A stretch of DNA of 57,355 bases from Algibacter sp. (GTDB lineage Bacteria > Bacteroidota > Bacteroidia > Flavobacteriales > Flavobacteriaceae): positions 1 to 57,355 of the forward strand of contig NZ_JAQWOO010000067.1 of NCBI RefSeq assembly GCF_029245835.1, read 5' to 3'. The translations under genes and the position numbers were made by a program. The notes below the pieces were generated by a model. It was given only the letters and a program-made list of their open reading frames with translations, did not search any database and was not told the origin of the DNA. Shown piece after piece: positions 11,654-45,465 of this stretch; positions within the stretch are counted from its first letter, which is position 1; the number at the start of each line of letters is the position of its first letter.

Positions 11654-11656
11654 TTT

Positions 11657-12970: not shown

Positions 12971-12971
12971 A

Positions 12972-13901: not shown

Positions 13902-13920
13902 ATTTAAAATCAACCAGGGA

Positions 13921-14814
13921 ATGAATCAAAGGATAATAAAAGAAACTAGGTGTGTATTGGTGGTATGTTTCTTATTTGTTTTTCAATTTTCAATAGCGCA
14001 ACTCACAGATTTAGCACGGTTAGAGTATTCATTTATTCCTCAAAGTAATTCTGAAGATCAGTACACAAGATTAAGGGCAATTTTAAATTATCCAATAGAA
14101 GTTAAAGAAGGTAGTTATTTAATAGTTGGAGCAGAGTATAACCGTATTTTTCTTAATTTAGAAGAGAATTATCCATTTGACACATCAGTTTTAGATAGAA
14201 TTCATATCATAGATTTAAACATTGGCTATACCTTTAAATGGAATGAAAAATGGCGATTGGGAGCAAAGTTTAACCCAAGAATTGCCTCTACACTTAATAA
14301 ATCTTTAAATGCAGATGATTTTTTTATGAATGGAGGCGTCTTTTTAATAAATGATAGAACTAAAGACGACAATTTAAAACGGCCCTACCGTTTAATTTTA
14401 GGGCTAACATATAATGCTACTACAGGGATACCATTTCCGTTACCCTTCATAAGTTATTATAGAAAAATTAATGAAGACTGGAGTTTTAATGCGGGTGTAC
14501 CAAAATCTAATTTAAAATATACATTTAATAAAGAAAATATCGTGCAGGCATTTGTTGGGCTAGACGGTTACTTAGCTCATCTACAAGATACTGTTGAAAT
14601 AAATGGACAAAATATAGATCATATTTCATTATCTGTAGCTGTTGGTGGACTTGGGTACGAATATTGCTTTACAAAACATTTAGTAGCTTATATGTATACA
14701 GGCTATACATTTAGACTAAACAATGTATTACGTAACAAAAATAGAGATGAAGTTTTTAAATTGAATGATGTTAACGCATTTTATTTAAGAACCGGACTTA
14801 AATTTAAAATATAA
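13921..14814 (+). CDS. DUF6268-like outer-membrane barrel protein
   Basis: A 297-residue exported protein. Residues 1-27 form a signal peptide (VLVVCFLFVFQFSIAQ, cleavage after AQ). The rest alternates short aromatic-rich beta strands (GYTFKWNEKWRLGAKF, YRLILGLTYNATTG, VAYMYTGYTFRLNNV) and ends in a strand finishing KFKI, as in small outer-membrane barrels. The LxxLARLEYSFIPQS beginning recalls DUF6268 proteins. It lies 19 bp after the channel gene and 2 bp before a response regulator, in the same apparent operon. The function is unknown. Confidence 0.65.
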   Translation: MNQRIIKETRCVLVVCFLFVFQFSIAQLTDLARLEYSFIPQSNSEDQYTRLRAILNYPIEVKEGSYLIVGAEYNRIFLNLEENYPFDTSVLDRIHIIDLNIGYTFKWNEKWRLGAKFNPRIASTLNKSLNADDFFMNGGVFLINDRTKDDNLKRPYRLILGLTYNATTGIPFPLPFISYYRKINEDWSFNAGVPKSNLKYTFNKENIVQAFVGLDGYLAHLQDTVEINGQNIDHISLSVAVGGLGYEYCFTKHLVAYMYTGYTFRLNNVLRNKNRDEVFKLNDVNAFYLRTGLKFKI

Positions 14815-14816
14815 AT

Positions 14817-16860: not shown

Positions 16861-17009
16861 TGGGCGTTTTAACACGCTTTTCGCTATATCTTTCTGCGAA
16901 GCAGTCCTAACTTACTTCAGGATAGCACCATAAATTAACTTTAGGTTTTAAAAGAAAGCCACTAGTTTAAATCTTCGCAAAAAGGATGCCGCTGCAATCG
17001 TTAACGCAC
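16861..17009. repeat. Interspersed-repeat candidate with inverted ends
   Basis: This 149-bp block between two genes begins TGGGCGTTTTAACACGC, continues CGCTATATCTTTCTGCGAAG, and ends CTTCGCAAAAAGGATGCCGC and ATCGTTAACGC. Its ends pair imperfectly (GCGTT/AACGC; CTTTCTGCGAAG against CTTCGCAAAAAGG). From memory, blocks of the form GGGCGTT...CGCTATATCTTT...AAAGGATGCCGCT...TAACGC are abundant between genes in Flavobacteriaceae. Its G+C-rich ends differ from the surroundings. Only one copy lies in this window. A partial -7 box (TATCTTTA, 17071-17078) for the next gene lies just after it. Confidence 0.6.
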
Positions 17010-27880: not shown

Positions 27881-27913
27881 GAAAAGCTAAAAGTTTATAC
27901 TTTTAGCTTTTCT
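27881..27913. terminator. Perfect 13-bp hairpin across the uvrB stop codon
   Basis: GAAAAGCTAAAAG and CTTTTAGCTTTTC pair perfectly around a 6-base loop that contains the uvrB stop codon. It may terminate either the TerB-like gene or uvrB; the T runs are short. Coordinates may be off by one base. Confidence 0.5.
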
Positions 27914-29898
27914 AATTTATTCTGGTAACTTTTAATATCGTCACGTAGTTTTGCTGCTACAATAAAGTCCAGTGCTTTTGCAGCTTGTTCCATAAGTTTT
28001 CTTTTTTCACGTATTTTCTTTTCTAGTTCGGGTTTACTCAAGTACTCATTTTCTGGTTCAGCAGCTTTTAAGGCTTCTAATTCATAACTGTATGTACTCA
28101 CCGAATTTTTTGATAAAACATTATTCAAGCTTTTATTTAATGCTTTAGGAATAAGATTGTGCTTTGTATTATATGCAATTTGTTTTTCCCGCCTGTATTG
28201 AGTTTCATCAATAGTTTTTTGCATGCTTTTTGTAATTTTATCAGCATACATTATAGCTTTACCGTTTAGGTTTCTAGCAGCTCTGCCAACCGTTTGAGTT
28301 AAGGAACGTGTGGATCGTAAAAAACCTTCTTTATCAGCATCTAAAATAGCTACAAGAGATACTTCAGGTAAATCTAAACCTTCACGAAGTAAATTTACAC
28401 CAACCAAAACATCAAAAAGACCTTTACGCAAATCTTGCATAATCTCTACACGCTCTAAAGTATCTACATCACTATGAATATAACGACAACGAATTTGAAT
28501 TCTGTCTAAATATTTAGTCAATTCTTCAGCCATACGTTTTGTAAGTGTAGTTACCAAAGTACGCTCATCTTTTTCAACACGAACTTGTATTTCTTCAATT
28601 AAATCATCAATTTGGTTTAAACTTGGGCGCACTTCAATAATGGGATCTAATAATCCAGTAGGACGAATAACTTGTTCAACATATACACCGTCTGTTTTTT
28701 GCAACTCGTAATCTGCAGGTGTAGCACTTACATAGATAACTTGATTCTGAATGGCTTCAAACTCTTCAAACTTTAATGGGCGATTGTCCATCGCAGCAGG
28801 TAACCTAAAACCATAATCTACCAGGTTTTCTTTCCTACTTCGGTCTCCTCCGTACATGGCATGTACTTGTGAAATAGTGACGTGGCTTTCATCTACTACC
28901 ATTAAATAATCATCAGGAAAATAATCTAATAAACAGAATGGTCGTGTTCCTGGAAGTCGACGGTCTAAATAGCGTGAGTAGTTTTCAATACCAGAACAAT
29001 AGCCTAATTCTCGAATCATCTCTAAATCAAACTCCGTGCGTTCTTTTAGTCTTTTTGCTTCTAGATGTTTTCCAATGTCTTTGAAATAGTCATGTTGTTT
29101 TACCAAGTCATCTTGAATATCTTTAATAGCAGATTGTAACACGTCTGGAGAGGTTACAAACATATTTGCAGGATAGATTGTAAGTTGGTCGTATTTTTCA
29201 ATAACCTGATTTGTTTGAATATTAAAAGATTCCATGTCCTCAATTTCATCACCAAAAAAGTGAATTCTAAAAGCATCATCAGCATAACTTGGAAAAATAT
29301 CAACGGTATCGCCCTTTATTCTGAAGTTTCCGTGTTTAAAATCTGCTTCTGTTCTTGAGTATAAACTCTGAACTAACTGATGTAATAATTTGGTTCTTGA
29401 AATAACTTGGTCTCTCTGTAAACTAATAACATTTTTTTGAAACTCAATGGGATTTCCAATACCATAGATACAAGAAACAGATGCAATTACGAGTACATCA
29501 CGTCGACCAGATAGGAGGGATGACGTGGCGCTCAATCGCATTTTTTCTATTTCTTCATTTATAGATAAATCTTTTTCTATATAAACACCAGAAACAGGAA
29601 TATAGGCTTCAGGTTGGTAGTAATCATAATAGGATACAAAATACTCAACAGCATTGTTAGGAAAAAATTGTTTGAATTCAGAATATAATTGAGCAGCTAA
29701 AGTTTTGTTGTGTGCTAAAACTAATGTTGGTTTCTGAACTTCTTGAATAACATTGGCTATAGTAAAGGTTTTTCCAGAACCTGTTACACCAAGCAAAGTT
29801 TGATATTTTTCATTTGAAGAGAGCCCCTCAGCTAATTTTTTTATGGCTTGTGGTTGATCTCCTGTTGGATTGAATTCGGATTCAATTTTAAACTTCAT
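27895..29898 (-). CDS. uvrB: Excinuclease ABC subunit B
   Basis: A 667-residue DNA-repair helicase that verifies damage and recruits UvrC. Walker A is LLGVTGSGKTFT near residue 40. The damage-probing beta-hairpin YYDYYQPEAYIP is near 90-105, Walker B/helicase motif VVDESH near 335, and helicase motifs NLLREGLDLPEVSLV and QTVGRAARN follow. The C-terminal UVR domain (KPELEKKIREKRKLM, AAKALDFIVAAKLRDDI) contacts UvrC. The length is normal. No uvrA or uvrC is adjacent. Confidence 0.98.
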   Translation of the reverse strand: MKFKIESEFNPTGDQPQAIKKLAEGLSSNEKYQTLLGVTGSGKTFTIANVIQEVQKPTLVLAHNKTLAAQLYSEFKQFFPNNAVEYFVSYYDYYQPEAYIPVSGVYIEKDLSINEEIEKMRLSATSSLLSGRRDVLVIASVSCIYGIGNPIEFQKNVISLQRDQVISRTKLLHQLVQSLYSRTEADFKHGNFRIKGDTVDIFPSYADDAFRIHFFGDEIEDMESFNIQTNQVIEKYDQLTIYPANMFVTSPDVLQSAIKDIQDDLVKQHDYFKDIGKHLEAKRLKERTEFDLEMIRELGYCSGIENYSRYLDRRLPGTRPFCLLDYFPDDYLMVVDESHVTISQVHAMYGGDRSRKENLVDYGFRLPAAMDNRPLKFEEFEAIQNQVIYVSATPADYELQKTDGVYVEQVIRPTGLLDPIIEVRPSLNQIDDLIEEIQVRVEKDERTLVTTLTKRMAEELTKYLDRIQIRCRYIHSDVDTLERVEIMQDLRKGLFDVLVGVNLLREGLDLPEVSLVAILDADKEGFLRSTRSLTQTVGRAARNLNGKAIMYADKITKSMQKTIDETQYRREKQIAYNTKHNLIPKALNKSLNNVLSKNSVSTYSYELEALKAAEPENEYLSKPELEKKIREKRKLMEQAAKALDFIVAAKLRDDIKSYQNKLEKLKV

Positions 29899-29985: not shown

Positions 29986-32900
29986 TTAACGTTTAAGAGT
30001 AAAGTGACCTGAGAATTGTCTGCCATCTTCCAAAGAAACCCTAAACCAATAATCATCGGTTGGTAATATATTGCCGTTAAAGGTTCCGTCCCATCCATTT
30101 GATTGCGCTAATAATTGCTTTATTAATTTACCATAACGGTCATAAATTAAAATGGTAGTATTAGGCTGAACTGTTTCATTAACGCCATTAATTCTCCATA
30201 AATCGTTTATTCCATCGCCGTTAGGTGTAAAGTATTTTGGATATCCAATAACAGAGATGTCTAAGGTAGATACACCACAAATATTATCTTTTACATAAAT
30301 GGTATAAAAACCAGGTCTTATATTGTTAAAAACCGGTTCTATTTGATAGTTAATAAAAGTAGAGTTTTCTTCTTGAAGCGCGAACTCATAACTGCCCATA
30401 CCTAAATTAGTTGTGTCAATAGTTACAGAATTATTATCAGATAGATCTATGATGGTAACATCTTCTTGTATTATGGTTGCTCGTTCTGAAGCATCAACAA
30501 ATATTGTTTCGGTTCTAGAGCAATTTGTACCATCTGTTTTGGTTAAGGTGATGGAATACGTACCTGGTATGGATACAGAAATAATTCTATCGTTTGATAC
30601 AAATTGATTTGTAGTCACGCCATCCAAACTAGTCCAAAGCCATTCGTAATTAAAAGTCTCAGCAGTATTAGCCTCGAAAGGTTCTAATTCTATTGAAAAG
30701 GTAGGATCTGATGAACAAACAAGTCTTGGCGTTTCAACTGTAAAATCGGGTAAAGGGTTTACAACCAAATTAATAACTGTTGTAGCCACACATATTCGAT
30801 TGATTGGATTTTCAACTTTAATATTAATGACTTGATTCTGAGAGGTTAGAGGGTTTGGTAAACTGGTTTGGTTAATTAATATACTGCCGTCTTCGGCTAT
30901 ATAATCATAATAAATTTCCATACCAATTTGAGTTCCTAAGATGGTACTACTAAATGTTGAGGTATCAAAGGGATAAAATCCATCATCATCAATATCTCCA
31001 GCATCTCCATCACAAACAATTTGATTTGGAATTGGATTTACAATAGGTTGTTCGTCAATAATAAATTCTAAAGTAGTTTCATCATAACATGCGCCATTAG
31101 GGGCTTGTGTATTGTTATTTGTTACACGAATAGTTATGGTTTGATTTTCGGTTAAAAAAGTAGGTTGTATTGGGCTTACAACAAGTGTACCATCGTTATA
31201 TAATAAAGGTGCTCCGTTGGAATCAAAATAAGTAATAGTGACATTCAAAGGATTTTGTCCATTTAAAATGTTTGTTTCTAATTGAGACACATCAAAAGGA
31301 AAGCTTAAAACAGTATCTGTGGTATCAAAATCGCATACCCTTGCAATTGTTACAGGATTTGCTGTTGGTAAAGCTTCAACATTTAAAAGATTAGGAAACT
31401 CTTCAAGACCTAAACAATCGTTTCCTTGATCGCTTTTTACTCTCACCCAAATACTTTGAATATTTGGTGAATTTGTGTTTTCGTGACTTGAAATGTCTAA
31501 TATTTCGTTCGTTTCTAATTCTGCATCATTTTGACTTTCATAAAAATGAACACTCACATTAAAAGTAGGAAATACATTTGTACTAATATCGTTTCTAATA
31601 TCTGTCATATCGAAAACAGAAACACCATCTCTATTATCTAAACCGTCATCACATTCAAACTTTGGGGTTGGTGTATATGAGGCTAAAGCGGCACTGCTTG
31701 GATTTACATCCAATATAATTGGTACAACTCTAAAACAAGTATTTGGATTTTCAATACGAATCCAAACGGTTTCAGGAGTAAAGCCTAATGCATCTTGATA
31801 AGTCTCTGGATTTATAATGGGATTAGTTGCATTTTCTGCTTCAGGTTGAGTTTCATAGTAAGTAAATACCAGTCCTTGGGCTATAAAGTTTGCATTTATT
31901 TCTTCCTTAATATTATCAAGCGTTAAGTTGAAAAATGCTTGTCCGTCATTAGAATCGTCATCACACTGCGCATATCTGTTTGGGTTATTCACTTGAGGTA
32001 ATTCTAAAACTTCTATTTCAAAAGAAGTATCTGTAAAACAATTTGTAAATAGATTATTAGTTACTCTAACGTAAATTGTTTGTAAGCTAGAAACGGTATT
32101 ATTAAATGTGGTTGGCGTTATTATTTGGTTTACGTAGCTAGCATCTGTGAAATAGGTTATTGTAAAATCTGTAGCCAACTGGCCATTAAGTATTTCAGCT
32201 TCTTTTTGTGTTAAATCTAAGGTTTTAAAACCATCGGTATCATTACCAACAGAATTATCATCACATTCTTGAAGTCTTGTCATTGTTGCAGAATCGGTAG
32301 GGAAAGCAGATTCAAATACTTCAATATTAAAGTTTGAAGTAGCAAAACAAGAGGGATTGTTGTCGTTTTCAACTCTTACATAAATAGTAGTATTGCCACT
32401 TTCAAAAGGACTTGTTATAGCATCAATATTTCCATCGGCATCCAATTGAGATTCATGATATGTTATTGTCATTCCAGAAACAGTAGTAATAGAATTATTT
32501 TGTGTTGTAAGATCGAAAGGCATGGTGCCATTATTATCGTCATCGCATAAACGCATAACAGGAGCAGTATTTGCAACAGGCAATTCATCAACTTTTAAAT
32601 CTATTTCATCTGAATAAATGCCACAACTATTTCCTGCTCTATCTAACTTAACCCTATACAGGTATCCACTGTAACTTATTGGTGTCATACTGATGGTTAA
32701 AACAGCTGTTTGTGTTCCAGAATACGTTGCGTTGTCTGTTAGGGTTGTCCAATTTACACCATCTGTACTTAATTCCCACTGGTATGTTTCTGTTTCAGGA
32801 GAAACCACGCTAATACTTACCGTCGATAACTCACAAGCTATAGTATTTTCGGGTTGTGTAGTAATACTAATTGGAGCAGTTGTTAGATAATCTATATTAG

Positions 32901-35721
32901 GTAACGTATAGCCATCAGTAGCATTGTTTACCAATCCGTTTGTATTTACAGTAGGGGGTGCACCTCCAAGAAAATCGTCTTGATTTACATCAGAAAAGCC
33001 TGCTTCAATAACATCGCTACATTCGTCACCATCACTATCAGTATCTAAATATGTAAAAAGGGTATCATTGTCTAAATCATTTAAAATATACCCTATTTCA
33101 TTACTATCAGGAGAAGTTTCCGCAGCATCTGACCAACCATTTATGCCATAATTTGGACCATCTACAACACCATTTAAATCGGTATCTGATAAGGTTCCTA
33201 ATTGTCCTGTTTCAATCAAATCAAATATACCGTCATTATCACTATCTAAGTCATAAAAATCTAAAACGGTATCGTTATCTGTATCTATTGGTAAAGTTGA
33301 AATATTAAAAACATCATCTAAACCATTTAAATCGGCGTCAATTCCCGAAAGTGTAACTAATGCTCCCTGGTTTTCAATACTATCAGGAATACCATCATTA
33401 TCACTATCTAAATCAAATGCATCTTGAATGCCATCTAAATCATTGTCATTTTTGAAACATGTTAAGGATATATTTGCTGTAAAACTTGAAGCTGTAGTTA
33501 TGTTTTCTAGTTTGTGAATAAACGAAAAGCCATCAATTTGATTTGCGAAAAACTTATATGGCGTGGTTCCTGTTGGTGTTGGGTTGATTTTGAAACGTAT
33601 TTCGGATCCTGAAATTATGGTAATTCCGGTTTCAAAAATACCATCGAAGTTAGAGTCGATTAGCAAGCGATCATCTGGATCAACAAGCGTAATATTTTTA
33701 TTTACTGGCGAAATTCTAGCTATAAAAAACTCACCATCAACAGAAGTGTGGATTATTGAGGTGTCTTCTGAAAGTTTAAAGTTTATAGGTTCTGTTAAGG
33801 AAATAGAATAATTATTTTCAGAATTTATTCCGGAAGATACATTACTTGAGAAATTTCCAGTACTCGTTCCTGTAAATGAATTGATATTCCCAGAACTGTT
33901 GGATTGCGTATACGTACTACTTGGTATAGTGGAATTGATAGAGCCATCTTGAAAAATTAGTTGGGGTGTATTGATGTTAGCAATATCAATTACAACATCT
34001 CCTCTAGATTCGGTACAGTTTAAAATACCATCATTATCATTATCAATATCTATGTTATCTATAATACCATCATTATCTCTATCATCTGGACAAATACTTA
34101 TTGGAATTTCAATAGACTCTAATTCTTCGCCAGTACAGGTTATAATACCTATTAATTTATATTTTCCTGGTTGCGAAGGAGTGATAATTGAAGTGGCTAT
34201 CATTAAATCAATAAAACCAGATCCAGAACCATCATCAAAAAGCCATTTAAAACTATCAAAACTTTGCGCATTTGCAGCTTCTAGCGTAATGTTTGGTATG
34301 CAGTTTCCTAATGTTGCAAATTGTGCATCAAAATTAATTTCTGGGTTAGAAGGGAAGCCTGAATAGAAACTACCAGAAGTTGCTGCTCCATTGTAGTTAA
34401 AGTAGGCACAATATAATTCATCATCACTTTGAACAGATATATTCCCGTTAAGCCCTTTTATTTTATATGTTATATAGTCAGGTTTTCCAGTAACTGGACT
34501 TGGCGCAACGGTAATAGGATTGTTATTAATAGTGACTGTGGCTCCAACTTTAGTAACAATTGAAATACCACCTTGGTAATTAATACTACCAATGTTATTT
34601 ATATTTGCAATATTGTCAAGATTTCCTCGCGTTTCACAGCTTAAAGGCGGTACAAAAAACATACCTTGATTAGCTTCATTTGGCGTGCCGTTATTTCCTA
34701 AGCCTCCAACACCTTGATAGGCAAAAACAGGTTCGGAAGTTTCTACATACATGTTGCCATTAGCACTATATTCGTTACCCTCAATAACATAATATTCGCC
34801 TGCATTAATAGTGGTAATTGGTGGGTTTCCATTAATACTAATGGTTGTATTATCAGAATGTGCAATAATTAAAGCATTTTCCCATGCATCATTTCCGTCG
34901 CCTTTTACAAAAATGTATTCTGTTCCAACTTTTGATAGGTCTACTATTTGGTCTATACCATAATCTCTTCCGCCACCAGAACCAAAACTACCATTTGTAG
35001 AGCCACAATTAACAACAATTGGTTTGGTAGAGTTTACTAGGCAACCAATTAAACCATCTTGATTCATTACAGCATCAGCACTATTAATTGCTACGGTGTA
35101 ACTTTCTCCTTCGTTTAATATTACAGGAATTGGAGTTGGTCCTGTATAGTTTTTTATAATTAATCCAGTTGGCAAATTACTAAAGTTAACTTGAGTATTA
35201 TCTTCAGTAGCCATTACTGAAACAAAGCTTAAGTAATTGCTAGAAGGACTTTCGTTTGTGTAACTACCTACTCTAAATGTAGTTCCCAAAGCAGAAATAC
35301 CTTTACTTACCAAGGCACCAGCCTGTGCGCCGTTGCCTGCATTCATTCTTACCGAAACATATATTGGTGCTTCGGCTTCTATAATATAGCCCTTATCATT
35401 TGTAATTACACTTGTTTGGTCTGAAGGAATAAATAATTGTCCATTACCTACGCCTATTGCTATTTGTTGAGGTATGGTATTTGATACAGTACCTGTAATG
35501 TAGCTTGTAGCAGGTTGACCTACTGGAATTATTGTATATGGTATATTACTATTGTTTGGAGTAGAAAGATAAATATATTGATCTTCCGGATTAGCATTTC
35601 CAAAAGCAGCACTTGTTAAGGGTGGGATATAATGTTTTTTACTTAATTGAGAATAGCCTTTAAAACTTAAAAGTATTAAGAGAATAAATGAAAAACATTT
35701 TAAATGATAATTTTTAAGCAT
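29986..35721 (-). CDS. Giant T9SS type B surface protein with IgGFc-binding-like head
   Basis: About 1911 residues from ATG 35721, chosen because MLKNYHLKCFSFILLILLSF...YSQ is a clear signal peptide; an upstream ATG at 35787 would add 22 residues. The head (about 25-480) resembles the IgGFc-binding N-terminal domain (APIYVSVRM, FVPPLSCETRG). A PKD/Ig-like unit follows, then thrombospondin type 3-like calcium motifs (DRDNDGIIDNIDIDNDNDG, DLDSDNDGIPD) to about 920. After an Ig-like domain come six CDDDxxDG repeats of about 90 residues and a PKD unit. The last 85 residues are the type B sorting domain (YFTPNGDGINDLWRI, YDRYGKLIKQL). It is presumably surface-exposed; an adhesin role is inferred. 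Confidence 0.85.
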   Translation of the reverse strand: MLKNYHLKCFSFILLILLSFKGYSQLSKKHYIPPLTSAAFGNANPEDQYIYLSTPNNSNIPYTIIPVGQPATSYITGTVSNTIPQQIAIGVGNGQLFIPSDQTSVITNDKGYIIEAEAPIYVSVRMNAGNGAQAGALVSKGISALGTTFRVGSYTNESPSSNYLSFVSVMATEDNTQVNFSNLPTGLIIKNYTGPTPIPVILNEGESYTVAINSADAVMNQDGLIGCLVNSTKPIVVNCGSTNGSFGSGGGRDYGIDQIVDLSKVGTEYIFVKGDGNDAWENALIIAHSDNTTISINGNPPITTINAGEYYVIEGNEYSANGNMYVETSEPVFAYQGVGGLGNNGTPNEANQGMFFVPPLSCETRGNLDNIANINNIGSINYQGGISIVTKVGATVTINNNPITVAPSPVTGKPDYITYKIKGLNGNISVQSDDELYCAYFNYNGAATSGSFYSGFPSNPEINFDAQFATLGNCIPNITLEAANAQSFDSFKWLFDDGSGSGFIDLMIATSIITPSQPGKYKLIGIITCTGEELESIEIPISICPDDRDNDGIIDNIDIDNDNDGILNCTESRGDVVIDIANINTPQLIFQDGSINSTIPSSTYTQSNSSGNINSFTGTSTGNFSSNVSSGINSENNYSISLTEPINFKLSEDTSIIHTSVDGEFFIARISPVNKNITLVDPDDRLLIDSNFDGIFETGITIISGSEIRFKINPTPTGTTPYKFFANQIDGFSFIHKLENITTASSFTANISLTCFKNDNDLDGIQDAFDLDSDNDGIPDSIENQGALVTLSGIDADLNGLDDVFNISTLPIDTDNDTVLDFYDLDSDNDGIFDLIETGQLGTLSDTDLNGVVDGPNYGINGWSDAAETSPDSNEIGYILNDLDNDTLFTYLDTDSDGDECSDVIEAGFSDVNQDDFLGGAPPTVNTNGLVNNATDGYTLPNIDYLTTAPISITTQPENTIACELSTVSISVVSPETETYQWELSTDGVNWTTLTDNATYSGTQTAVLTISMTPISYSGYLYRVKLDRAGNSCGIYSDEIDLKVDELPVANTAPVMRLCDDDNNGTMPFDLTTQNNSITTVSGMTITYHESQLDADGNIDAITSPFESGNTTIYVRVENDNNPSCFATSNFNIEVFESAFPTDSATMTRLQECDDNSVGNDTDGFKTLDLTQKEAEILNGQLATDFTITYFTDASYVNQIITPTTFNNTVSSLQTIYVRVTNNLFTNCFTDTSFEIEVLELPQVNNPNRYAQCDDDSNDGQAFFNLTLDNIKEEINANFIAQGLVFTYYETQPEAENATNPIINPETYQDALGFTPETVWIRIENPNTCFRVVPIILDVNPSSAALASYTPTPKFECDDGLDNRDGVSVFDMTDIRNDISTNVFPTFNVSVHFYESQNDAELETNEILDISSHENTNSPNIQSIWVRVKSDQGNDCLGLEEFPNLLNVEALPTANPVTIARVCDFDTTDTVLSFPFDVSQLETNILNGQNPLNVTITYFDSNGAPLLYNDGTLVVSPIQPTFLTENQTITIRVTNNNTQAPNGACYDETTLEFIIDEQPIVNPIPNQIVCDGDAGDIDDDGFYPFDTSTFSSTILGTQIGMEIYYDYIAEDGSILINQTSLPNPLTSQNQVINIKVENPINRICVATTVINLVVNPLPDFTVETPRLVCSSDPTFSIELEPFEANTAETFNYEWLWTSLDGVTTNQFVSNDRIISVSIPGTYSITLTKTDGTNCSRTETIFVDASERATIIQEDVTIIDLSDNNSVTIDTTNLGMGSYEFALQEENSTFINYQIEPVFNNIRPGFYTIYVKDNICGVSTLDISVIGYPKYFTPNGDGINDLWRINGVNETVQPNTTILIYDRYGKLIKQLLAQSNGWDGTFNGNILPTDDYWFRVSLEDGRQFSGHFTLKR

Positions 35722-35856
35722 TTCCAAAATATAAGTGCTAATTAAAAACGAAACACTAAAATATACTATTTTAGTATTATAAGACATATAAAACCTTTCA
35801 AGGTTTAATTTTGAAGGTTAAAATGCTAAATAATTATTTAATATTGAAAGAAAAAA

Positions 35857-38800
35857 TTATCGTTTTAAAGCAAAATGTCCTCTAATGTTAAAAGACTCTC
35901 CATCTTGAATAATATCAGCAGAAAACCAATAATCATCTGAAGGCATATTTTGTCCATTGTAAGTCCCATCCCATCCTTCAGAATAATAGGGAAGTGTTTT
36001 AATTAATTTACCATGCCTGTTATAAATATAGACTATAGTTCCGGGTAGTTGATTGGCTCCAACAATATGCCATGTGTCATAGGCATTATCATTATTTGGT
36101 GTTAAAAATTTTGGTATATCAAAAATGAAAACAGGTTTCTGAACGTCTAAACAACCATTTAAATCTCTTACAGTAACAATATGAGAACCAAAAGAAACAT
36201 CTTCAAAAATATTAGAATTATTTGGAGTGTTTTCAACACCATCTAAAAGAAAAATATAATCACCAATTCTAGAATTGTCAATTTCGACTGTTATACGATT
36301 TGGATCTGCAAAATTAACAGTTGGAGTAAAATTAATTACAGCTTCATCAGACGGAATAACTTCAAAATTGTGGGTGTACGAACAATCGTTTCCTATAACG
36401 TTTGGTCTTGTTACTGTAACAGAATAGCTGCCCACGTTTATAGGAGCAACAATAATTTGACTTGTAGTTTCGCCTGTAGACCATAAATATTGATCTCCAG
36501 CTACGCCTGTATCAGCGACTATTAAAACAGGGTCGCCGTTACATATTGGAATAGTTTGTGCTATTGGGATAATTGGTAATGGATGTACACGAATATTAAA
36601 TTGTGTTGTACTATAACATCCAGTACTGTTATTTTCGAGTCTAACAAATATGATGTCTCCATCAATAGCTGAATAGATATTTGGTAAAGCATCTACTTTA
36701 TTTTCAGCATTACCTAAATTTTCATAAAACGTTATAGAATAATCAGAAGCATTTAATCCTCCTAAAATGGTATTGTTGTTATCTGTTAAATTGAAAATTT
36801 GTTCGCCATCATAATCATCATCACAATCTACAAAACCTGGTGGCGTGTTAGCAACAGGATTTTCATTTATCTGCAAAATAAAAGACGTTATAATCGGGCA
36901 GCCTGTTACTGCATCTGAAACTCTGACAAAAATTTCGTGGTTACTAGTTGTGTAATTAAATATATTATTTAAAGGAGCTAGATTATTATCGGCATTATTT
37001 TGACTGTCATGATATGAAATATTTACCAATGAAGTATCATCAACAACCATCTCGTTAACTTGAGATAAATCGTATGTATTTGTATCATTATCACAAATAG
37101 TAATTATAGGTATTGTATTTATTTGTGGCGGTAAATTAACAATAAGTTCAAGTGGTGAAACAGTATAGCACATTGTTATAGTATTAACAATTTTAATATA
37201 TATTGTTTTGGCTACCGAGTTAAAATTGGCTGGATTAATAATTTCGTTTGAATTATCTAAGCCGTCGCTACTATTAATATCTGTTTCATTTTCAAAATAG
37301 TTTATTTCAAGATTACTTTTTACACGGTCTAAAACTTCAAAATCTGGAGTTATAGTATCTAGATTATAAAAAGTTAAATCAAAAGAAGCTTCACCATTAG
37401 ATGTTGGTGCGCATGCTGTTAAAGATGGTGCGCCCACAAAAACATCTGGAGCTGCAACAATGTTTATTCCAATTTCTTCAACAACAAAACAAAAGGATGC
37501 AGAACTTTCAATTCTTATATAAATACTCTGAGGGTTTCTAATATTGGTATAATTTGCAGGTAATGGTTCTGTTGCGCTTTCAGCAAGCTCAGGTGTTTCA
37601 TGAAATGAAATAGTTAAAACATCAGGAGAAGTTGCTTGAATTTCATCAGCTTTTGCTTGTAAATTAAACGCGCTAACACCATCATTACTGGCATCATCAC
37701 AAACTAGAAAATCTATTATAGTATCATAAATTGGATCTGGTGCTACTTGAATATTTATAGAACCTATACTAAAACATGTAGCATCTGTAATATTTTCTAC
37801 TCTTATATATATAATTTTTGAGTCTGAATTATATGGATCATTCTTAGGAATGGCATTTGCTAAATTTCCACTAATAGCATCAGTCTCATCTTCAAAATAA
37901 TAGACTTCTTTACCGGTTTGTCCATTTAATATTTCAACATCAGTTTCTGCTAATATAAAATCAGCAAAACTATCTCCATCATCTTCACAAACTTGGAATA
38001 TGATACCTGTAGGAATAATGGGTAACGTATTTATTATGGCTTCAAATGAAACTACAGAATAACATCCTGTACCACTTACCGCATCTTCAATTCTTATAAA
38101 AATAGTTTGTGTATTTGTATTATAGGCATTTCTATCTGAAACAGGAATAGCATTAGCAGTAACATTATTATTAGCATCATCAAAAGATGTAAAAACATCA
38201 ATAGTAAAACCTGTTCTGCTAGGTAATGCTTCATCTATCTTATCTTCAAGGTTAATTATTGAAAAGCCATCTTGATCATTATCACAAATAATTTCGTCTG
38301 TTGGCTGTATGGCTGTTGGAGCAACAAGCACTTCAATTTGAAAAGGGTTAACGGTTGAACATCCAGAATCTATATTTACAATACGCGCATACAGCGTTTC
38401 AACAGGATTGGAATTATTATAGAATGGCGGCAGTTGATTGTTTTCATTATTAGTGTCAGCATCCGCTTGTGTTTCAAAATAAGTAACCGTAAAATCAGTA
38501 TTACTTCTTGTAACAATATCGGTTACAGATCCGGGTTCAATGGATTGTAAATCTATACTTGCTATACCATCGTCATCATCATCACAATAGGGTATAGTTA
38601 CATTATCGAATAGTAAGATTGGGTTCACCAATAAAGTAATTTCAGAATTTTCAACACAACCACCATCTTCTATTGTTATGTATAAAACTTTTGGGCTTAA
38701 AGCTGCAAATGGTGTTGTTTTATCTATAGCAATGCCATTGTCTCTATCGTCTTCAGACTCGAAAAAGTTAACTGTTATTGAGTTAGGTAAATCATTAGCA

Positions 38801-40806
38801 ATAAAATTCTCTAGCGTGTTTAAATCAAAATCTAAAGTATCGGTATTATCATCGTTAGTATCGCAAAGAGCAAAATCTCCTACATCAGTGCCAGTAAGTA
38901 ATAAATTGGTATGGATTTCAAAAGGGACTATGGTCGCACAACCTGTAGTGTCATCTTCAATTCTTAAGTAAATAGTAGCCGAACCAGGTTCTAATACGGC
39001 ATTGGTATATTGGTAATTAGTTTCATCTGCTATAGGGCTAACATTCATTTCAGCTTGATCAAAAGTAGCATGAAAGGTCGTTGAAACTCCGGTTAATCCG
39101 TTTAAAATATTAGCAATAACTTCTGTTAAATCAAAAGTGGCTTCACCGTCTAAGTCTCTATCACAAGCATCAATATATTGGGTGTCTCTATTAGCAACGG
39201 GGCTTAGTGTAACCACAATATCTAATGTCGTATTTGTTACGCATCCAGTATTGGTATCTACAATTCTAACATAAACCTGATCATTAGGGGTATTTGTATT
39301 TATATAAGGGGATGGTATTGGGTTATTTCCTGAACTAGCATCTAAAGGGTTGTAATGATAAGAAACCAATAAATTTGTTTGTCCGGAAGTAATTTCATCA
39401 TCTTTTTGGGTTAAATCAATAATGGCATAACCATCAGGAGTATCATCACCATCACAGACCTCCAAAGGAGTAGGGGCTAAGATATTAGGAAGCGGGTTTA
39501 CAATAAGGTTAAAAGTTGTATATGAAAAGCAATTGCTATCTAAATCTTGAACTCTTACAAAAATAGGTTGCGGGTTTACTGTATTTGGGATAGGCGTGGT
39601 TATAGCACCAATATTTAATCTTGCATCATTATCAGAATAATGATAACTTAATGTATAATTGGTAAACGGTGAATTATTAGATATTTCGATATCCTTAGTT
39701 GTTAAGTCAAACACCTCGGTTTCATCACCGCTAGAATCATCGCACAATGCGTAATCAGTAATTGGATCCATGGGTTCTTCGGTATTTAAAACCACAACAA
39801 TTTCATCGGTTTCTACACAAGAGGTTCCATTAACAGGAACAGCAACTTCAACCAGATATGTGCCGTCTTGAACTGCATTATATGTAGCATTAATAGCGCC
39901 TGTAATTAAAGTGCCGTTTCTATACCAAGCATACGAGGCAAGAGGGTTTTGTAAATCCGCATTTAAAGTTCTAGAACTATCACAAGTGATAATGTCTTCT
40001 CCTAAGTCTAAAATTCTAAAACTATCACCTTCAATAAATACTGCTGAATCAAAGGTGCCATCGGTTTGATCTGCAATAACTAATTTAATACGATAAGTAA
40101 CATTTGGGAGAATAGAACCAAAAGCCGTTAAAACGGTTGTTCTACCATTATAGTTTGTATCACCGAGCGTATAACCAGCAAAATATTCTTCGTTTTGGGG
40201 CTCACAATTAATTGTATTTGCATTAACATTATGAATGGTACTTGTATTTACAGGTGTTGAGGTTCCTGGAATTAGTGCGATATTTTGGTAAGGATCTGCG
40301 GTACCAGCTTCTTTAATAAGAAAGGCAAAACCATCAGAAAACTGACAAGGGTTAATACCAAAGTACTCTTCTGATGCTAACAGATAATTAAATTGAAATT
40401 GATTTGAAATGGATACAAAATCAAATTCAATTGATGTGGCGTTAACTGTATTGGTAATGCCTAATGCTGTTTCTAAATCTGGATCAGTAACCCAAGTTGT
40501 TGAGCCTTCGCTAAGAGTAGGTGTTATTTGTGAGTTTCCTCCAGACGCCGAAGCTCCTGTAGAAAGCATAATTCCATTCTCAAAAGGAAAATTTGAACCT
40601 GCTCTTTCAAAATAGGCATAACTCGATAAACCACTCGAAATACCATTTACAGACGAACTAATATTGCTAATATCTACACAGCCATTAACTAAGTTATCTT
40701 GCACTAAAGATTGTAAACTAACAGAGTCATCAACCGAAATTTGTTGAGAAAACACAAAATTTCCACTAAAGCAAAGTATAAATAAGATGAGGTATATAAG
40801 TCTCAT
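35857..40806 (-). CDS. Giant T9SS type B surface protein with choice-of-anchor L head
   Basis: A 1649-residue protein with signal peptide MRLIYLILFILCFSGNFVFS. Residues about 25-255 match a choice-of-anchor L domain (NGIMLSTGA, FDFVSISNQFQFNYLLASEE, GFAFLIKE). An Ig-like unit with YAWYRNGTLITGA follows. From about 345 to 1370 there are eleven copies of a 90-100 residue unit that opens CDDDxDGxxxFDLT and ends IYVRVENxxTGC..., interspersed with acidic clusters. A PKD-like unit (YLWSTGETTSQI) and the type B sorting domain (KFLTPNNDNAYDTWHIVGAN, YNRHGKLIKTL, GHFALKR) close the protein. It shares repeats and tail with its two neighbours and is probably a paralogous surface adhesin. Confidence 0.87.
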   Translation of the reverse strand: MRLIYLILFILCFSGNFVFSQQISVDDSVSLQSLVQDNLVNGCVDISNISSSVNGISSGLSSYAYFERAGSNFPFENGIMLSTGASASGGNSQITPTLSEGSTTWVTDPDLETALGITNTVNATSIEFDFVSISNQFQFNYLLASEEYFGINPCQFSDGFAFLIKEAGTADPYQNIALIPGTSTPVNTSTIHNVNANTINCEPQNEEYFAGYTLGDTNYNGRTTVLTAFGSILPNVTYRIKLVIADQTDGTFDSAVFIEGDSFRILDLGEDIITCDSSRTLNADLQNPLASYAWYRNGTLITGAINATYNAVQDGTYLVEVAVPVNGTSCVETDEIVVVLNTEEPMDPITDYALCDDSSGDETEVFDLTTKDIEISNNSPFTNYTLSYHYSDNDARLNIGAITTPIPNTVNPQPIFVRVQDLDSNCFSYTTFNLIVNPLPNILAPTPLEVCDGDDTPDGYAIIDLTQKDDEITSGQTNLLVSYHYNPLDASSGNNPIPSPYINTNTPNDQVYVRIVDTNTGCVTNTTLDIVVTLSPVANRDTQYIDACDRDLDGEATFDLTEVIANILNGLTGVSTTFHATFDQAEMNVSPIADETNYQYTNAVLEPGSATIYLRIEDDTTGCATIVPFEIHTNLLLTGTDVGDFALCDTNDDNTDTLDFDLNTLENFIANDLPNSITVNFFESEDDRDNGIAIDKTTPFAALSPKVLYITIEDGGCVENSEITLLVNPILLFDNVTIPYCDDDDDGIASIDLQSIEPGSVTDIVTRSNTDFTVTYFETQADADTNNENNQLPPFYNNSNPVETLYARIVNIDSGCSTVNPFQIEVLVAPTAIQPTDEIICDNDQDGFSIINLEDKIDEALPSRTGFTIDVFTSFDDANNNVTANAIPVSDRNAYNTNTQTIFIRIEDAVSGTGCYSVVSFEAIINTLPIIPTGIIFQVCEDDGDSFADFILAETDVEILNGQTGKEVYYFEDETDAISGNLANAIPKNDPYNSDSKIIYIRVENITDATCFSIGSINIQVAPDPIYDTIIDFLVCDDASNDGVSAFNLQAKADEIQATSPDVLTISFHETPELAESATEPLPANYTNIRNPQSIYIRIESSASFCFVVEEIGINIVAAPDVFVGAPSLTACAPTSNGEASFDLTFYNLDTITPDFEVLDRVKSNLEINYFENETDINSSDGLDNSNEIINPANFNSVAKTIYIKIVNTITMCYTVSPLELIVNLPPQINTIPIITICDNDTNTYDLSQVNEMVVDDTSLVNISYHDSQNNADNNLAPLNNIFNYTTSNHEIFVRVSDAVTGCPIITSFILQINENPVANTPPGFVDCDDDYDGEQIFNLTDNNNTILGGLNASDYSITFYENLGNAENKVDALPNIYSAIDGDIIFVRLENNSTGCYSTTQFNIRVHPLPIIPIAQTIPICNGDPVLIVADTGVAGDQYLWSTGETTSQIIVAPINVGSYSVTVTRPNVIGNDCSYTHNFEVIPSDEAVINFTPTVNFADPNRITVEIDNSRIGDYIFLLDGVENTPNNSNIFEDVSFGSHIVTVRDLNGCLDVQKPVFIFDIPKFLTPNNDNAYDTWHIVGANQLPGTIVYIYNRHGKLIKTLPYYSEGWDGTYNGQNMPSDDYWFSADIIQDGESFNIRGHFALKR

Positions 40807-40953
40807 AACTCGTAGGTGTTTTCTAGTTCTTTTTTATTTATTAAAAATAATAATTAGTTGGGGCTAATTAAAGGCGAAAAGTAGATTTTTTTCAGATGAA
40901 ATGCAAAAAAAACAGGATAAAATGCATTTAAATTAGTTTTTTCGTATATATAG

Positions 40954-43704
40954 TTAGTTAATTAAAGCAAAATGCCCTTTAAAAACTCTTCCATCTTGTA
41001 ATTTAACAGAAAACCAATAATCATCTGTAGGTAATTTTGCTCCGTTTATGATACCACTAAAACCTTCACCTAAGGGTGATATTTGTTTTAATAATTTACC
41101 AAATCGGTTGAAAATTTGAATTTTGGTATTAGGTTGAAACATATTAGACACACCATATAATTTCCAAGTATCGTTTACCCCATCATCATTAGGCGTAAAA
41201 AATTTAGGAAATCCAATAACAGAAACAGCTTTATCAACTACACCACAATTGTTTTTTATATCTTGAACATAAACGGTGTAAATACCAGGAAATATATTTT
41301 CGAATATATTACTATCTTGATACGGCTGTAATGTGTTATTATTTTCATCAGCTAATCTGTATTGATAGATGCCTTCTCCTGTAACGAAAACGGTTATGGA
41401 ATTATTTTGCGAGAGATCCTTAACATCAAACGGAGGCATTTCAAAAGTGGCAATATTTGAAGTTTCAACAGTAACGGTTCTATCTTTAGAACAACCATTG
41501 GCATTTATAACAGTAACTTTATAGTCTCCCGGCGTATTTATATTAATTTGGTATGTGTTTTCACCTGTAGACCAGCTATAGGAGTAATCGCTAATAGAGC
41601 CATCTAAATCTCCAGCATCTATAGGTATGGTAGTAGGGAAACTATTTAAGCAGTAATATTCTACATCTTCAATAATTACATCTGGTAGTTCGAATACATT
41701 AAGAAACAATTCACTAATACCATAGCAAATATTAATATTTTCAACACGGGCATATAGTGTCTCACTGTAAGGTGTCTTATTTGTGTATGTTGTATTTAAA
41801 TTGTTTTCTTCTAAAAGGGCATCATTATAACTTTTATAATAAACAACATTTAAGCCTAAAGGGAGACCCTCTAGAATATCAGCTTCAGCATCATTTAGGT
41901 TAAAGGTGTGAAATCCATCTTCAATACCATCATCATCACAGGTGTTTAAAAATGCATTATTAGAATCTGTTAAAGTAACATCAAGAGTTAATTCAGAAAA
42001 ACTGATACAACCTGTTTCATTATTTATAACGTCTACGTAAATAATTTGTGGATTAATATTATTGGTAAAAGCGTTTCCATCAATTTCTAGTGTTCTTGCT
42101 GGATCTGTATAAAATTTAGTTAATCTGTTTCGAATACTTCCTGTTAGCGCCTCATTAGCTTGGTTGAGATTAAAAGTTGTTAAGCCATCAAATACGCCGT
42201 CTTCATCACATTGAATTAGGGTATAATCAAAAGCATCTGGGTTTGGTGTGAAGTTAACAAAAGCCTGACCTTCTAAGGGACAATCTCCACTAATTAGTTC
42301 AATAAACACTTCATAATGGCCACTTTCAAAAACTTCTAAATCAAAATCAGATTCAGCTAACGGCATGCCATCTAATGTCCAAGCATAATTAGCTCCAGGT
42401 ATATCTTCAGAAGCTAAAACGTATGAGCTACCATCACAAATTGTTAAATTAACAGAACTCTTATCGTTTTTTATAATATCAATTGTGGTATCAAAAAACG
42501 ATACTAAAAAAGGGGGGAGTCCTTGAGAGGAATTAAATGGCGATAAGTCTATGGCGTTATGTCTGTAATTACTTCCTGTTCCAACAATATTTGGGTTTTC
42601 TATAACACCAAGATAAGGTAACCCTGTATTATAAGTAGCACTTAATGCTCTGTAAATTTTTCCGTCAGGTCCTAATTGTAAAGCACCTCTATAAAGGTTT
42701 CTTGAATCTAAAACTACTTGAGAATTTTGTATGTCGGGAACCGTTAAATTAAATTGAGAAAGTGTTGAGGTATGATTTTGAGGGTTTTCAGAATTGCTTG
42801 GATTTTCAAAATCAAAAAAATCATTTGATGCATGCACATATAAAAGGTTACTATTTGGTGAAAATTCTAAACCGTACGGTGTATTGTTAGGGGCATTAAA
42901 TACTAATTTTGTAGCATTGCTTACTTCTCCAGATGCCGAATCAAAATCATAAACAAACAAGCGATCTTCGGTATTAATAATATTTTGTCTAGTACCTGCT
43001 GATGCGTTTGCTGAAGCTAATTTTTTTCCATTAGGAGATAGTTTTAAATAACCTCTATAATCGGTAATATTAATAGGAAATACAGATTTTACCGAATTAG
43101 GATTTACTCCAAGATTACTAACCTCGAAAGCGTGAAAGGTATTATGCTCTTCTAATGTTCCATTTTCTGAAGCAAATGTTAATACCCATATAGATTTTGT
43201 GAAACAATCTTTTAATACTGCTGATAATTTTTCAGAACAGTCAGGTAGTAAATTTATATTCTTATTGGTTACAGCGCCTAAACCGCCACTTAATGTCATA
43301 TCTATTTCAGAATAGTTTAATCCATAATGAATTTCATTACGATTATGGTCGTCTGCTGTAAATATGTAGTAGATATTTGGTGTATTAGGTTTTGGAACAA
43401 TGATAGCAGATTGTGAACTTGATGGATCTCCAAAAAGGACATTTCCGTTTGTCATCACATCATGATTTCTGTTCCATATGGTTATGCCATCTGTATAGAA
43501 TAACAAATCGCCATTATTATCAGAAATTGACGAGCAACCTTCAATAGTATTTAATTGACCATCATTTTTTTTAGTGATTGAATTATCATTAAGATCAAAT
43601 GCTATTGCAGCGTTATAACCAAAATACCAATTTGAGGCTTCATTTTGGCCATAAATAAATAGTCCATATAGGCTAAGAATTACGAATAATACTGTCTTTT
43701 TCAT
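40954..43704 (-). CDS. T9SS type B surface protein with a propeller-like head
   Basis: A 916-residue protein with signal peptide MKKTVLFVILSLYGLFIYG. The first 400 residues (NWYFGYNAAIAFDLNDNSI, GDLLFYTDGITIWNRNHD, LKLSPNGKKLASAN, LYRGALQLGPDGKIYRA) look like a beta-propeller domain seen on many flavobacterial secreted proteins. A PKD-like unit comes next, then two copies of the CDDDGxxDGxxTFNLN repeat (about 500-690), another PKD unit (YSWSTGENTYQI), and the type B sorting domain (FFTPNDDGVNDTWKLYGV, FNRFGKLLKQI, GHFALIN). It is first in a run of three genes on one strand, spaced 147 and 69 bp or more apart; co-expression is possible but not shown. Confidence 0.87.
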   Translation of the reverse strand: MKKTVLFVILSLYGLFIYGQNEASNWYFGYNAAIAFDLNDNSITKKNDGQLNTIEGCSSISDNNGDLLFYTDGITIWNRNHDVMTNGNVLFGDPSSSQSAIIVPKPNTPNIYYIFTADDHNRNEIHYGLNYSEIDMTLSGGLGAVTNKNINLLPDCSEKLSAVLKDCFTKSIWVLTFASENGTLEEHNTFHAFEVSNLGVNPNSVKSVFPINITDYRGYLKLSPNGKKLASANASAGTRQNIINTEDRLFVYDFDSASGEVSNATKLVFNAPNNTPYGLEFSPNSNLLYVHASNDFFDFENPSNSENPQNHTSTLSQFNLTVPDIQNSQVVLDSRNLYRGALQLGPDGKIYRALSATYNTGLPYLGVIENPNIVGTGSNYRHNAIDLSPFNSSQGLPPFLVSFFDTTIDIIKNDKSSVNLTICDGSSYVLASEDIPGANYAWTLDGMPLAESDFDLEVFESGHYEVFIELISGDCPLEGQAFVNFTPNPDAFDYTLIQCDEDGVFDGLTTFNLNQANEALTGSIRNRLTKFYTDPARTLEIDGNAFTNNINPQIIYVDVINNETGCISFSELTLDVTLTDSNNAFLNTCDDDGIEDGFHTFNLNDAEADILEGLPLGLNVVYYKSYNDALLEENNLNTTYTNKTPYSETLYARVENINICYGISELFLNVFELPDVIIEDVEYYCLNSFPTTIPIDAGDLDGSISDYSYSWSTGENTYQININTPGDYKVTVINANGCSKDRTVTVETSNIATFEMPPFDVKDLSQNNSITVFVTGEGIYQYRLADENNNTLQPYQDSNIFENIFPGIYTVYVQDIKNNCGVVDKAVSVIGFPKFFTPNDDGVNDTWKLYGVSNMFQPNTKIQIFNRFGKLLKQISPLGEGFSGIINGAKLPTDDYWFSVKLQDGRVFKGHFALIN

Positions 43705-43732: not shown

Positions 43733-44557
43733 TCATAAATCGCGCTTTCTTAATAATCTAAACGATAAAAAGATGAATAGGGTGGTCCAACATAAAACAA
43801 TAAGAATTTCAAACCCATGCACTCCATAATCATAAGCCAATTCTGCTGTATCAGGGAATTTCGTCATAGCAATTCGTTGAAATGGTTGGTCAATCAATTT
43901 ATACATGGATTTAAGTGGGAAGAAATTTTGAATTTTTTCAGCTAAAGTTAAATCAGATTGCCATGCTATTAAACCAAATAGTATCCATTCTATAATATAT
44001 AATATAAATAGAAAGGCTAATGCAAATGCAGAACGTTTTACCAGCATACCAAAAAATAAACATAAACTAAAAAAGCCAATTAATTTTATAAAGTAGGCCA
44101 TAAGAAATTCAACGCCTCTAAATATTATAGACGCTTCATTATAGCTAGAATAGTATAAACCAATGCATAAAGAAATTAGTCCAATAAGAATGGTTGAAAT
44201 CAATGAGAAAAATACAATGGTGTAAAACTTAGAGAGTATAAATTCTTTTTTGCTTAAACCGTCAATAAGATTTTGTTTTATGGTTTTATTACTATACTCA
44301 TTACCAATCATGCTTACTACTACTATGGCAAAAAAGAATTTGAATTGTGATGAAAAAAATGTGGTTAAATGCCATATAACAGGAAAATTAAAAACGCCAA
44401 GTTCTCCCAATTCTAATGTAAAAAAACCAAAGACATTAATTTTTAAAGATGAAAGTAATATGACGAAGAATGGTAAAACAAACGATACAAATATGAGTAT
44501 TTTACTTGTTTTATTAAGTAATAGTTTTTGTAATTCTAAATTTAAAAGTCTTAACAT
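43733..44557 (-). CDS. ABC-2 type permease
   Basis: A 274-residue membrane protein with six hydrophobic segments, the single-unit ABC-2 permease plan. The motif MIGNEYSNKTIKQNLIDGLSK (helix-loop after the second membrane segment) is the typical permease signature that contacts the ATPase. The ATPase gene lies 5 bp upstream on the same strand, so the two form an exporter. The substrate is unknown; similar pairs export lipids, peptides or antibiotics. The gene lies just upstream, in transcription order, of the three surface proteins, with a 28-bp gap, but a functional link is only conjecture. Confidence 0.85.
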   Translation of the reverse strand: MLRLLNLELQKLLLNKTSKILIFVSFVLPFFVILLSSLKINVFGFFTLELGELGVFNFPVIWHLTTFFSSQFKFFFAIVVVSMIGNEYSNKTIKQNLIDGLSKKEFILSKFYTIVFFSLISTILIGLISLCIGLYYSSYNEASIIFRGVEFLMAYFIKLIGFFSLCLFFGMLVKRSAFALAFLFILYIIEWILFGLIAWQSDLTLAEKIQNFFPLKSMYKLIDQPFQRIAMTKFPDTAELAYDYGVHGFEILIVLCWTTLFIFLSFRLLRKRDL

Positions 44558-44562
44558 TCTAA

Positions 44563-45465
44563 TTAGTTTTGCTTGTTGTCAGTTAATTGTAAAAATTGTT
44601 CTTCTAGACTTTCTTTCCGTTGCACTAAATGAGTTAAAATAATGCCCTGTTCAAAAAGATATTTATTGAAATCTTCAGATTTCATGGGTTCATTTAAAAA
44701 TGCAGTCACCAAATGATTTAGAACTTTTATTTTTCCAAATGATTTATTGTTCTCTAAAATGTTAACTAACTCCGTTTCATTATTACACTTAAGTTCAAAA
44801 AAACCATGACTAGAAATCATTTCATCAACTCTGCCGGAATACAATTTTACACCTTTACGAAGCACAACCACATGAGAGCATACCTTTTCAACTTCATCAA
44901 GTAAATGAGATGCTAATAGAATAGTAGTGCCTTTAGCTGCAATTTGTTTTATTATTTTTCTAATTTGATGAATACCCTGCGGATCTAATCCATTAGTTGG
45001 TTCATCAAGAATTAATATTTCCGGATCGTTTAATAGGGCAGAAGCAATGGCCAGACGTTGTTTCATGCCTAACGAGTAGGTTTTAAATTTACTGTCTTTA
45101 CGTTCTATAAGTCCAACAATCTCTAGCTTCTCATCAATTTTACTAAAATCAACACCTTTAATCTTACAAACAAGCTTTAAATTTTGATAAGCTGTCATGT
45201 ACGGATAAAAGTTTGGGCGCTCAATAATAGCACCTACTTTTTTTAAAGCATCATGAGTTGTAGTATTCCCATCAAACCAATGAAAATCTCCTTCGGTTTT
45301 ATTAACAACATTTAAAACAATACCTAAAGTTGTTGATTTTCCACTGCCATTAGGTCCTAAAAGACCATAAACATTACCCTTTTTTATAGTAAAGGATAAA
45401 TTTTTAACTGCTGTTAAATACCCAAATTTTTTTGTAAGGTTGTTAATTGTAAGAATAGATTCCAA
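44563..45465 (-). CDS. ABC transporter ATP-binding protein
   Basis: A 300-residue ATPase with Walker A GPNGSGKST (37-45), signature YSLGMKQRLAIAS near 133, Walker B ILILDEPTNGLDP near 152-165, and H-loop LASHLLDEV near 185. The C-terminal part is variable and probably contacts the permease encoded 5 bp downstream. In sequence style it is close to bacitracin- and lantibiotic-type exporter ATPases, but that does not prove a resistance role. Promoter evidence is weak (TAGTTTG just upstream). Confidence 0.92.
   Translation of the reverse strand: MESILTINNLTKKFGYLTAVKNLSFTIKKGNVYGLLGPNGSGKSTTLGIVLNVVNKTEGDFHWFDGNTTTHDALKKVGAIIERPNFYPYMTAYQNLKLVCKIKGVDFSKIDEKLEIVGLIERKDSKFKTYSLGMKQRLAIASALLNDPEILILDEPTNGLDPQGIHQIRKIIKQIAAKGTTILLASHLLDEVEKVCSHVVVLRKGVKLYSGRVDEMISSHGFFELKCNNETELVNILENNKSFGKIKVLNHLVTAFLNEPMKSEDFNKYLFEQGIILTHLVQRKESLEEQFLQLTDNKQN

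Follow-up and report, generated by a model that had tools for sequence, protein, structure and literature searches.

For most studied T9SS type B adhesins, the shuttle gene is found next door to the adhesin gene, and grappling hook protein A (GhpA) functions in prey capture. In F. johnsoniae, nine of 12 type B proteins are paired in this way and the three orphans share one unlinked shuttle, Fjoh_1677, as determined by pull-down and secretion assay (PMC12618676). The shuttle SprF of the same organism is bonded to GldK Cys343 through its Cys-X-Cys tail (PMC12635249).

The window, i.e., the whole stretch of 57,355 nucleotides that was analyzed from Algibacter sp., a marine-type member of the Flavobacteriaceae, carries three neighboring minus-strand genes at 40954-43704 (916 aa), 35857-40806 (1649 aa), and 29986-35787 (1933 aa, likely 1911 aa from the signal-peptide-like start at ATG 35721). 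Their products are acidic (pI 4.05, 4.05, and 4.27), with hydrophobic N-termini seen by eye, and by kind and layout they are, with near certainty, T9SS type B surface proteins; this kind is already known, and the site, the repeat, and the probable shared shuttle are new. We consider it somewhat probable (about 0.55) that the trio represents Sec- and T9SS-exported type B rods with exchangeable tips, which would share one unlinked shuttle encoded on contig C16 and might move on the gliding track. As in the orphan substrates described in PMC12618676, type B C-terminal domains (CTDs) that are alike occur here without an adjoining PorP, and a single unpaired PorP exists; in contrast to them, three of the seven orphans are located at one site, and two of the seven fall outside the CTD clade of the trio. 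SprB and SprF (PMC9143113 and PMC12635249) likewise combine a large repetitive type B surface protein with a shuttle bearing a Cys-X-Cys tail, as the likely shuttle does here, but the trio has no adjoining shuttle gene, contains another repeat, and measures 916-1933 aa against the 669 kDa of SprB (PMC9143113).

The propeller-type (A) protein of 916 aa consists of an all-beta propeller-like head, an Ig-like domain, two repeats (aa 491-674; 41683-42234), an Ig-like region, and a type B CTD (aa 830-915; 40960-41217; TIGR04131 E 4.1e-30, 103.8 bits). The 1649-aa protein (type L) starts with a choice-of-anchor L head (aa 34-263; 40018-40707; NF038133 E 8.3e-44, 149.6 bits vs a cut-off of 27), followed by an Ig-like domain, 11 repeats (aa 346-1411; 36574-39771), an Ig-like region, and a type B CTD (aa 1563-1649; 35860-36120; E 5.7e-29, 100.1 bits). 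In the 1911/1933-aa protein (type G), an IgGFc_binding head (aa 164-458; 34414-35298; PF17517 E 4.6e-39, 134.9 bits vs a gathering score of 25.6) is followed by a TSP3-like DxDxDG stretch (about aa 565-945; 32953-34095), six repeats (aa 1072-1680; 30748-32574), an Ig-like region, and a type B CTD (aa 1847-1933; 29989-30249; E 4.7e-35, 119.6 bits). The IgGFc_binding match was seen when the head was scanned separately and was missed by the whole-protein Pfam scan. The original prediction of three adjacent same-strand genes for proteins of about 1911, 1649, and 916 residues, sharing a type B sorting domain at their C-termini, agrees with the open reading frames and with the TIGR04131 scores, all three above the cut-off of 35 bits.

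Regarding the different heads it proposed, the IgGFc-binding-like and choice-of-anchor L assignments hold, the thrombospondin 3-like motifs were recognized by eye (TSP3_bac E 0.19, 12.1 bits against a cut-off of 25), and the propeller is plausible. No Pfam or NCBIfam family matched the 916-aa head, for which a profile search gave a TolB match at E 0.32, and the 27 strands within residues 25-410 of its structure model are compatible with a putative seven-bladed propeller. PF17517 and NF038133 place the larger two heads in described domain families; the family names indicate no ligand here, and IgG binding is not implied.

The common repeat, predicted in 6, 11, and 2 copies, was recovered in exactly these numbers by a profile that was seeded with 11 hand-picked units and then iterated: all 19 trio copies scored i-E 4e-29 to 1.4e-19 in the last round, and the next candidate 0.03. 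Each of the 19 copies is about 95 residues long and contains two cysteines, no more and no fewer, located around positions 10 and 80. When the loci of related genomes (labeled G) are added to the window, exactly two cysteines are present in 361 of 367 copies; these paired cysteines may form a disulfide within each repeat. For four copies that were scanned individually, neither Pfam nor NCBIfam gave a family match of useful score. A model of repeats 1-3 of the 1649-aa protein (mean pLDDT 92.2, pTM 0.74) shows two helices among strands in each repeat. A repeat-profile match to the lysozyme chain 5i8l (E 0.0011) was dropped as chance, the stretches having i-E 7 or worse, and full-length phmmer of each trio protein against PDB chains returned nothing at E 1. 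Neither this site nor this repeat was named in the literature searched at the level of titles and abstract starts. Elsewhere in the window, a 618-aa gene at 330-2186 (-) matches SH3_3 weakly and contains a 174-bp tandem array (2.9 copies).

Structure comparison brings up GhpA of Aureispira sp. CCB-QB1 (PDB 9flp and others), which has a type B-like CTD and, by profile, Ig-like domains in common with the trio, so that the rods might catch other cells rather than serve in attachment or gliding. The profile of the 916-aa family matches GhpA at E 8.2e-37, with the CTD stretch at i-E 6.9e-9 and a weak Ig-like domain match, and GhpA fragments ranked first in Foldseek for both models (that of the 916-aa protein has mean pLDDT 83.9 and pTM 0.53). 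Nevertheless, the TM was 0.36 or lower, so that the modeled likeness is one of multi-domain rods; GhpA is not among the matches of the repeat profile, even with E values allowed up to 10, and it has 5898 aa against 916-1933 aa. A role in capturing cells is thus very improbable. The structure alignments covered 46 of the 56 A genes found and 51 of the 77 anchor-L stretches, together with the window's own.

The trio lies between an ABC-2 type permease gene (43733-44557, -; PF12679 1.4e-9), 28 bp before the 916-aa gene, and uvrB (27895-29898, -; TIGR00631 1010.7 bits), both of which were also placed as borders by their position in relatives; an ABC transporter ATPase gene (44563-45465, -; PF00005 7.2e-30) adjoins the permease. 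In the relatives read, the permease-uvrB interval contains 0 to 7 type B genes. The site around the permease was read in 19 genomes (the window's, G000, and 18 relatives), with the usual order of cca, ctaA, a 170-aa gene, a 354-aa gene on the opposite strand, ABC ATPase, ABC-2 permease, type B genes, and uvrB; ctaA or the 354-aa gene was not seen in a few of them. Cargo numbers were one (G023), two (G001, G022, and G026), three and four, and up to seven (G018); the contig of G024 stops before uvrB, and the site of G005 is split over contigs. In G033 (L067-L068), about 15 kb of other genes separate the type B cargo from uvrB.

It is conceivable that the ABC transporter is a working part of the export or modification of the trio, since permease and cargo are separated by 28 bp in the window and the ABC pair, wherever it is present in the 19-genome set, stands before the cargo. 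A further set of 13 genomes with a permease match, however, includes two (G016 and G030) in which the permease stands directly before uvrB with zero cargo, and G002 has cargo and no permease; the transporter is therefore a border of the site, neither required for cargo nor always accompanied by it, and its candidacy as a needed part was rejected, this being the most improbable of the explanations weighed. Elsewhere in the further set, one to four type B genes follow the permease in G012, G019, G021, G027, G035, and G036, with uvrB beyond the cargo within the stretch for G012, G021, and G035. In G020, nothing separates permease and uvrB and an IgGFc-type gene is found on the other side of the ABC pair; G010 also has an IgGFc-type gene of this sort, and its permease and uvrB are separated by a type B fragment of 154 aa. 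The cargo gene of G034 is located after uvrB, the G031 stretch contains neither cargo nor uvrB, and G025, with its permease at a contig end, is uninformative.

A mobile-element origin of the site is conceivable; no tRNA was found within the window. Promoter-like sites were no commoner there than in shuffles, and terminators were rarer than in shuffles. A Flavo-1 RNA was matched at 16866-17009 (-) with 42.8 bits, the gathering score being 42. At 10727-15980 (+), genes for a second ABC ATPase and ABC-2 permease precede those for an MscS-like channel, a DUF6268 protein, and a sigma-54 response regulator. Two neighboring glutamine-synthetase-like genes diverge at 4173-6359 (-) and 6630-7652 (+); one product has 728 aa and weak matches, and the other is nearest to GlnII (363.6 bits, under the cut-off of 500).

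To follow the genes across relatives, genome contigs were scanned with the anchor-L head, which matched 332 relatives, and the best 80 of 332 were kept as named loci; these include Algibacter, Flaviramulus, Tamlana, Flavivirga, Wocania, Mariniflexile, Seonamhaeicola, Hyunsoonleella, Psychroserpens, Winogradskyella, and others, and having been picked by the anchor-L head and by top score they do not give the frequency of the empty site. Counting complete genes only, at least one complete anchor-L gene occurs in 77 of these 80 loci, and 76 of the 77 have one with 11 copies (the exception, L183, has 14), the second anchor-L genes mostly having two repeats. The X genes (about 815 aa), a type absent from the window, have four repeats in 34 of 34 cases. 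The A genes have two (56 genes), four (19), one (3), or six repeats (1), and the G genes have four (24), six (4), two (3), or none (1). Slippage would be unlikely anyway because the repeats within one protein are about 35% alike; a better point is that sister genes at the same site did change copy number.

In 17 anchor-L proteins with 11 repeats (those with 17, 9, 5, and 2 were left out), 185 of the 187 repeats find their best other-genome match at the same position, with a median identity of 67% compared with 35% for the best match within the protein, so that the repeats correspond by position across genera. The idea of a plastic, variable repeat array in the anchor-L gene is contradicted by these matches and by the 11 copies in 76 of 77 loci. 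The different copy numbers that had been predicted thus hold between the genes and not as plasticity within the 11-copy gene, whose steady count suggests that the length of the stalk is important. Of the six relatives listed, only G005 has a close counterpart to the first two repeats of the 1911-aa protein in the window.

The original prediction regarded the cluster as a modular family growing by duplication and head swapping. A modular T9SS type B family at a single site, growing by duplication, is borne out by two relatives: in G028, a fragment of the ABC-2 permease gene (C3:486672-486875, -; 59% identical) between two A genes marks a tandem duplication, and in G018 four anchor-L genes follow one another. 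The tree built from 77 tails unites 19 of the 21 anchor-L tails and one anchor-L gene fragment at 100/99, and the remaining two, from 2-repeat genes, are placed elsewhere; the 12 IgGFc-type tails lie on one side of a branch (69/88), and the A and X tails are intermixed and nearly identical in G033. The named loci include 34 A/X pairs from a shared locus, and in 14 of these the two tails resemble each other (up to 98%) more closely than one or both resemble the best relative with the same head at another locus; tails are at least 75% identical in 11 of 332 same-locus different-head pairs, all of them A/X. The three CTDs of the trio are 47-55% identical to one another and fall in separate groups of this tree, each common to other genera. 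These values, together with the 185 of 187 position-matched repeats, indicate an old trio; the comparison thus supports that duplication and head-tail exchange act at the site and that the window's trio is a product of old events, so that the proposed growth stands for the site (G028, G018, and the A/X tails) and not as a recent event for the trio.

A further head type, Y, with one repeat and about 590-613 aa, was seen at L069-L070 (G014), L071-L072 (G017), L083 (G018), and 20 named loci. Two Y tails group with PorP-paired CTDs, and the Y proteins may use another shuttle.

The SprA translocon is present in the window's genome (2731.9 bits), with 14 TIGR04131 hits (13 above the cut-off) and eight PorP/SprF proteins. 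Pairing, counted in the window's genome alone (97% complete, 100 contigs), left seven type B genes with an adjoining PorP, seven orphans including the trio, and one unpaired PorP at G000 C16:11814-12821; contig C88 gave no TIGR03519 match at all, and no porP/sprF gene thus adjoins the trio. L109:2996-5632 (+) encodes a longer PorP-like protein of 878 aa, matched to the PorP family in its N-terminal part, and adjoins the 481-aa type B gene under the cut-off. A further orphan with a propeller-type head and the same repeat is apparently split over C7 (L116:4502-6880) and C69 (L112:3719-5005), the ends of which share sequence. The seven orphan CTDs are 38-55% identical mutually and 20-39% identical to the paired CTDs, except for the C15b CTD (35-48%).

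In 31 of 60 genomes, counting that of the window, the unpaired PorP has a match of at least 45% identity. Six of the 30 loci of its orthologues have a type B gene next to the PorP gene, upstream on the same strand in G017, G018, G021, G034, and G036 and convergent in G013, and the other 24 loci, a few of them cut by contig ends, have no type B neighbor. In a CTD tree of 55 tails and 97 columns, with island tails of G015, G017, G018, G028, G033, and the window's genome, a clade of 29 rows contains all six PorP-linked CTDs, the trio, two more orphans of the trio's genome, and 18 island tails of relatives; its moderate support, 86/95, is below the starred level and comes from these 97 columns. 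Similarity among PorPs and among CTDs was correlated over eight labels (Pearson 0.74, permutation p 0.0012; Spearman 0.43), to which the similar pair C84a/C84b probably contributes, and for which the C15a PorP was trimmed to the first 330 of its 878 residues. It is thus likely, as far as these comparisons reach, that the trio shares one unlinked PorP/SprF-type shuttle (C16). One shuttle for every orphan is not supported, C58 and C81 lying outside the trio's clade together with the Y-type tails, and the CTD of L267 is likewise outside, although the PorP adjoining it matches the unpaired PorP best of the eight queries (128.8 bits).

Instead, the carrier of the trio might be the SprF-like PorP at C15, which is encoded next to a type B gene for 2779 aa: the CTD there is the nearest paired one to the orphans (mean 37%), its PorP is the closest to the unpaired PorP (30%) and also ends in a Cys-X-Cys tail, and crosstalk between similar CTDs is known (PMC12618676). 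The CTDs beside this PorP type, however, belong mostly to a group other than that of the trio, since 13 of 16 tails labeled SprF-like form a separate clade (93/45) in the 55-tail tree; all 16 held as one clade were not rejected (p-AU 0.087). This carrier is therefore unlikely.

Sharing of the C16 shuttle would bear on the gliding track. The unpaired PorP ends CNCPAVN, and a Cys-X-Cys C-terminus occurs in 28 of its 30 orthologues, missing in G023, which has a single-gene site, and in G034. Among the other PorPs of the window's genome, the C64 tail has Cys-X-X-Cys, and those of C84a, C84b, C19, and C16:49543 have no cysteine within the last 25 residues; these four look like the static type, and three of them have OmpA-like neighbors. 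GldK is present in the window's genome with cysteines at 39, 299, and 356 of the frame, the latter two spaced like Cys285 and Cys343. The trio would have the Cys-X-Cys and GldK-cysteine trait of a gliding-track adhesin only if the C16 PorP is its shuttle, and on this ground, movement on the track is plausible.

Static adhesins or coat proteins with the same export and shared shuttle, and with no gliding role, are also possible, though with clearly less confidence than the reading given at the outset: a tested orphan CTD of F. johnsoniae gave mostly static foci, with helical movement in 3% of cells (n = 525; PMC12618676), and two of the 30 orthologous shuttles lack Cys-X-Cys. Against a purely static role, the motif is kept in 28 of 30 orthologues and is absent from the four static-looking PorP tails of this genome.

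According to the reading of shared, possibly track-borne rods, the trio proteins would be exported by Sec and then by T9SS through the SprA translocon, each with a tip domain carried by a rod of acidic repeats, with one possibly disulfide-forming cysteine pair per repeat, and with a type B tail. As orphan substrates, they would be collected and held in the outer membrane by the common C16 PorP/SprF-type shuttle, whose Cys-X-Cys tail might attach to GldK as that of SprF does, so that part of the molecules may travel on the track. They could thereby serve as accessory adhesins with exchangeable tips, in adhesion or recognition, and the permease-uvrB interval would gather such genes by duplication, loss, and tail exchange.

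Such a conserved site with several type B genes, for which one unlinked PorP is the likely common carrier, would show shuttle sharing as in F. johnsoniae across a wide clade, and it predicts the shuttle that each substrate should bind and the substrates that should travel with the gliding track. Our results also raise the tentative possibility of a multi-tip motile adhesin system, in which one track-attached Cys-X-Cys shuttle would serve several rods with exchangeable tips and stalks of set length (11 or four repeats) encoded at a dedicated site. A link to holding particular surfaces in the sea is speculation; if such a multi-tip system exists, the shared moving track would let a gliding cell display several surface specificities.
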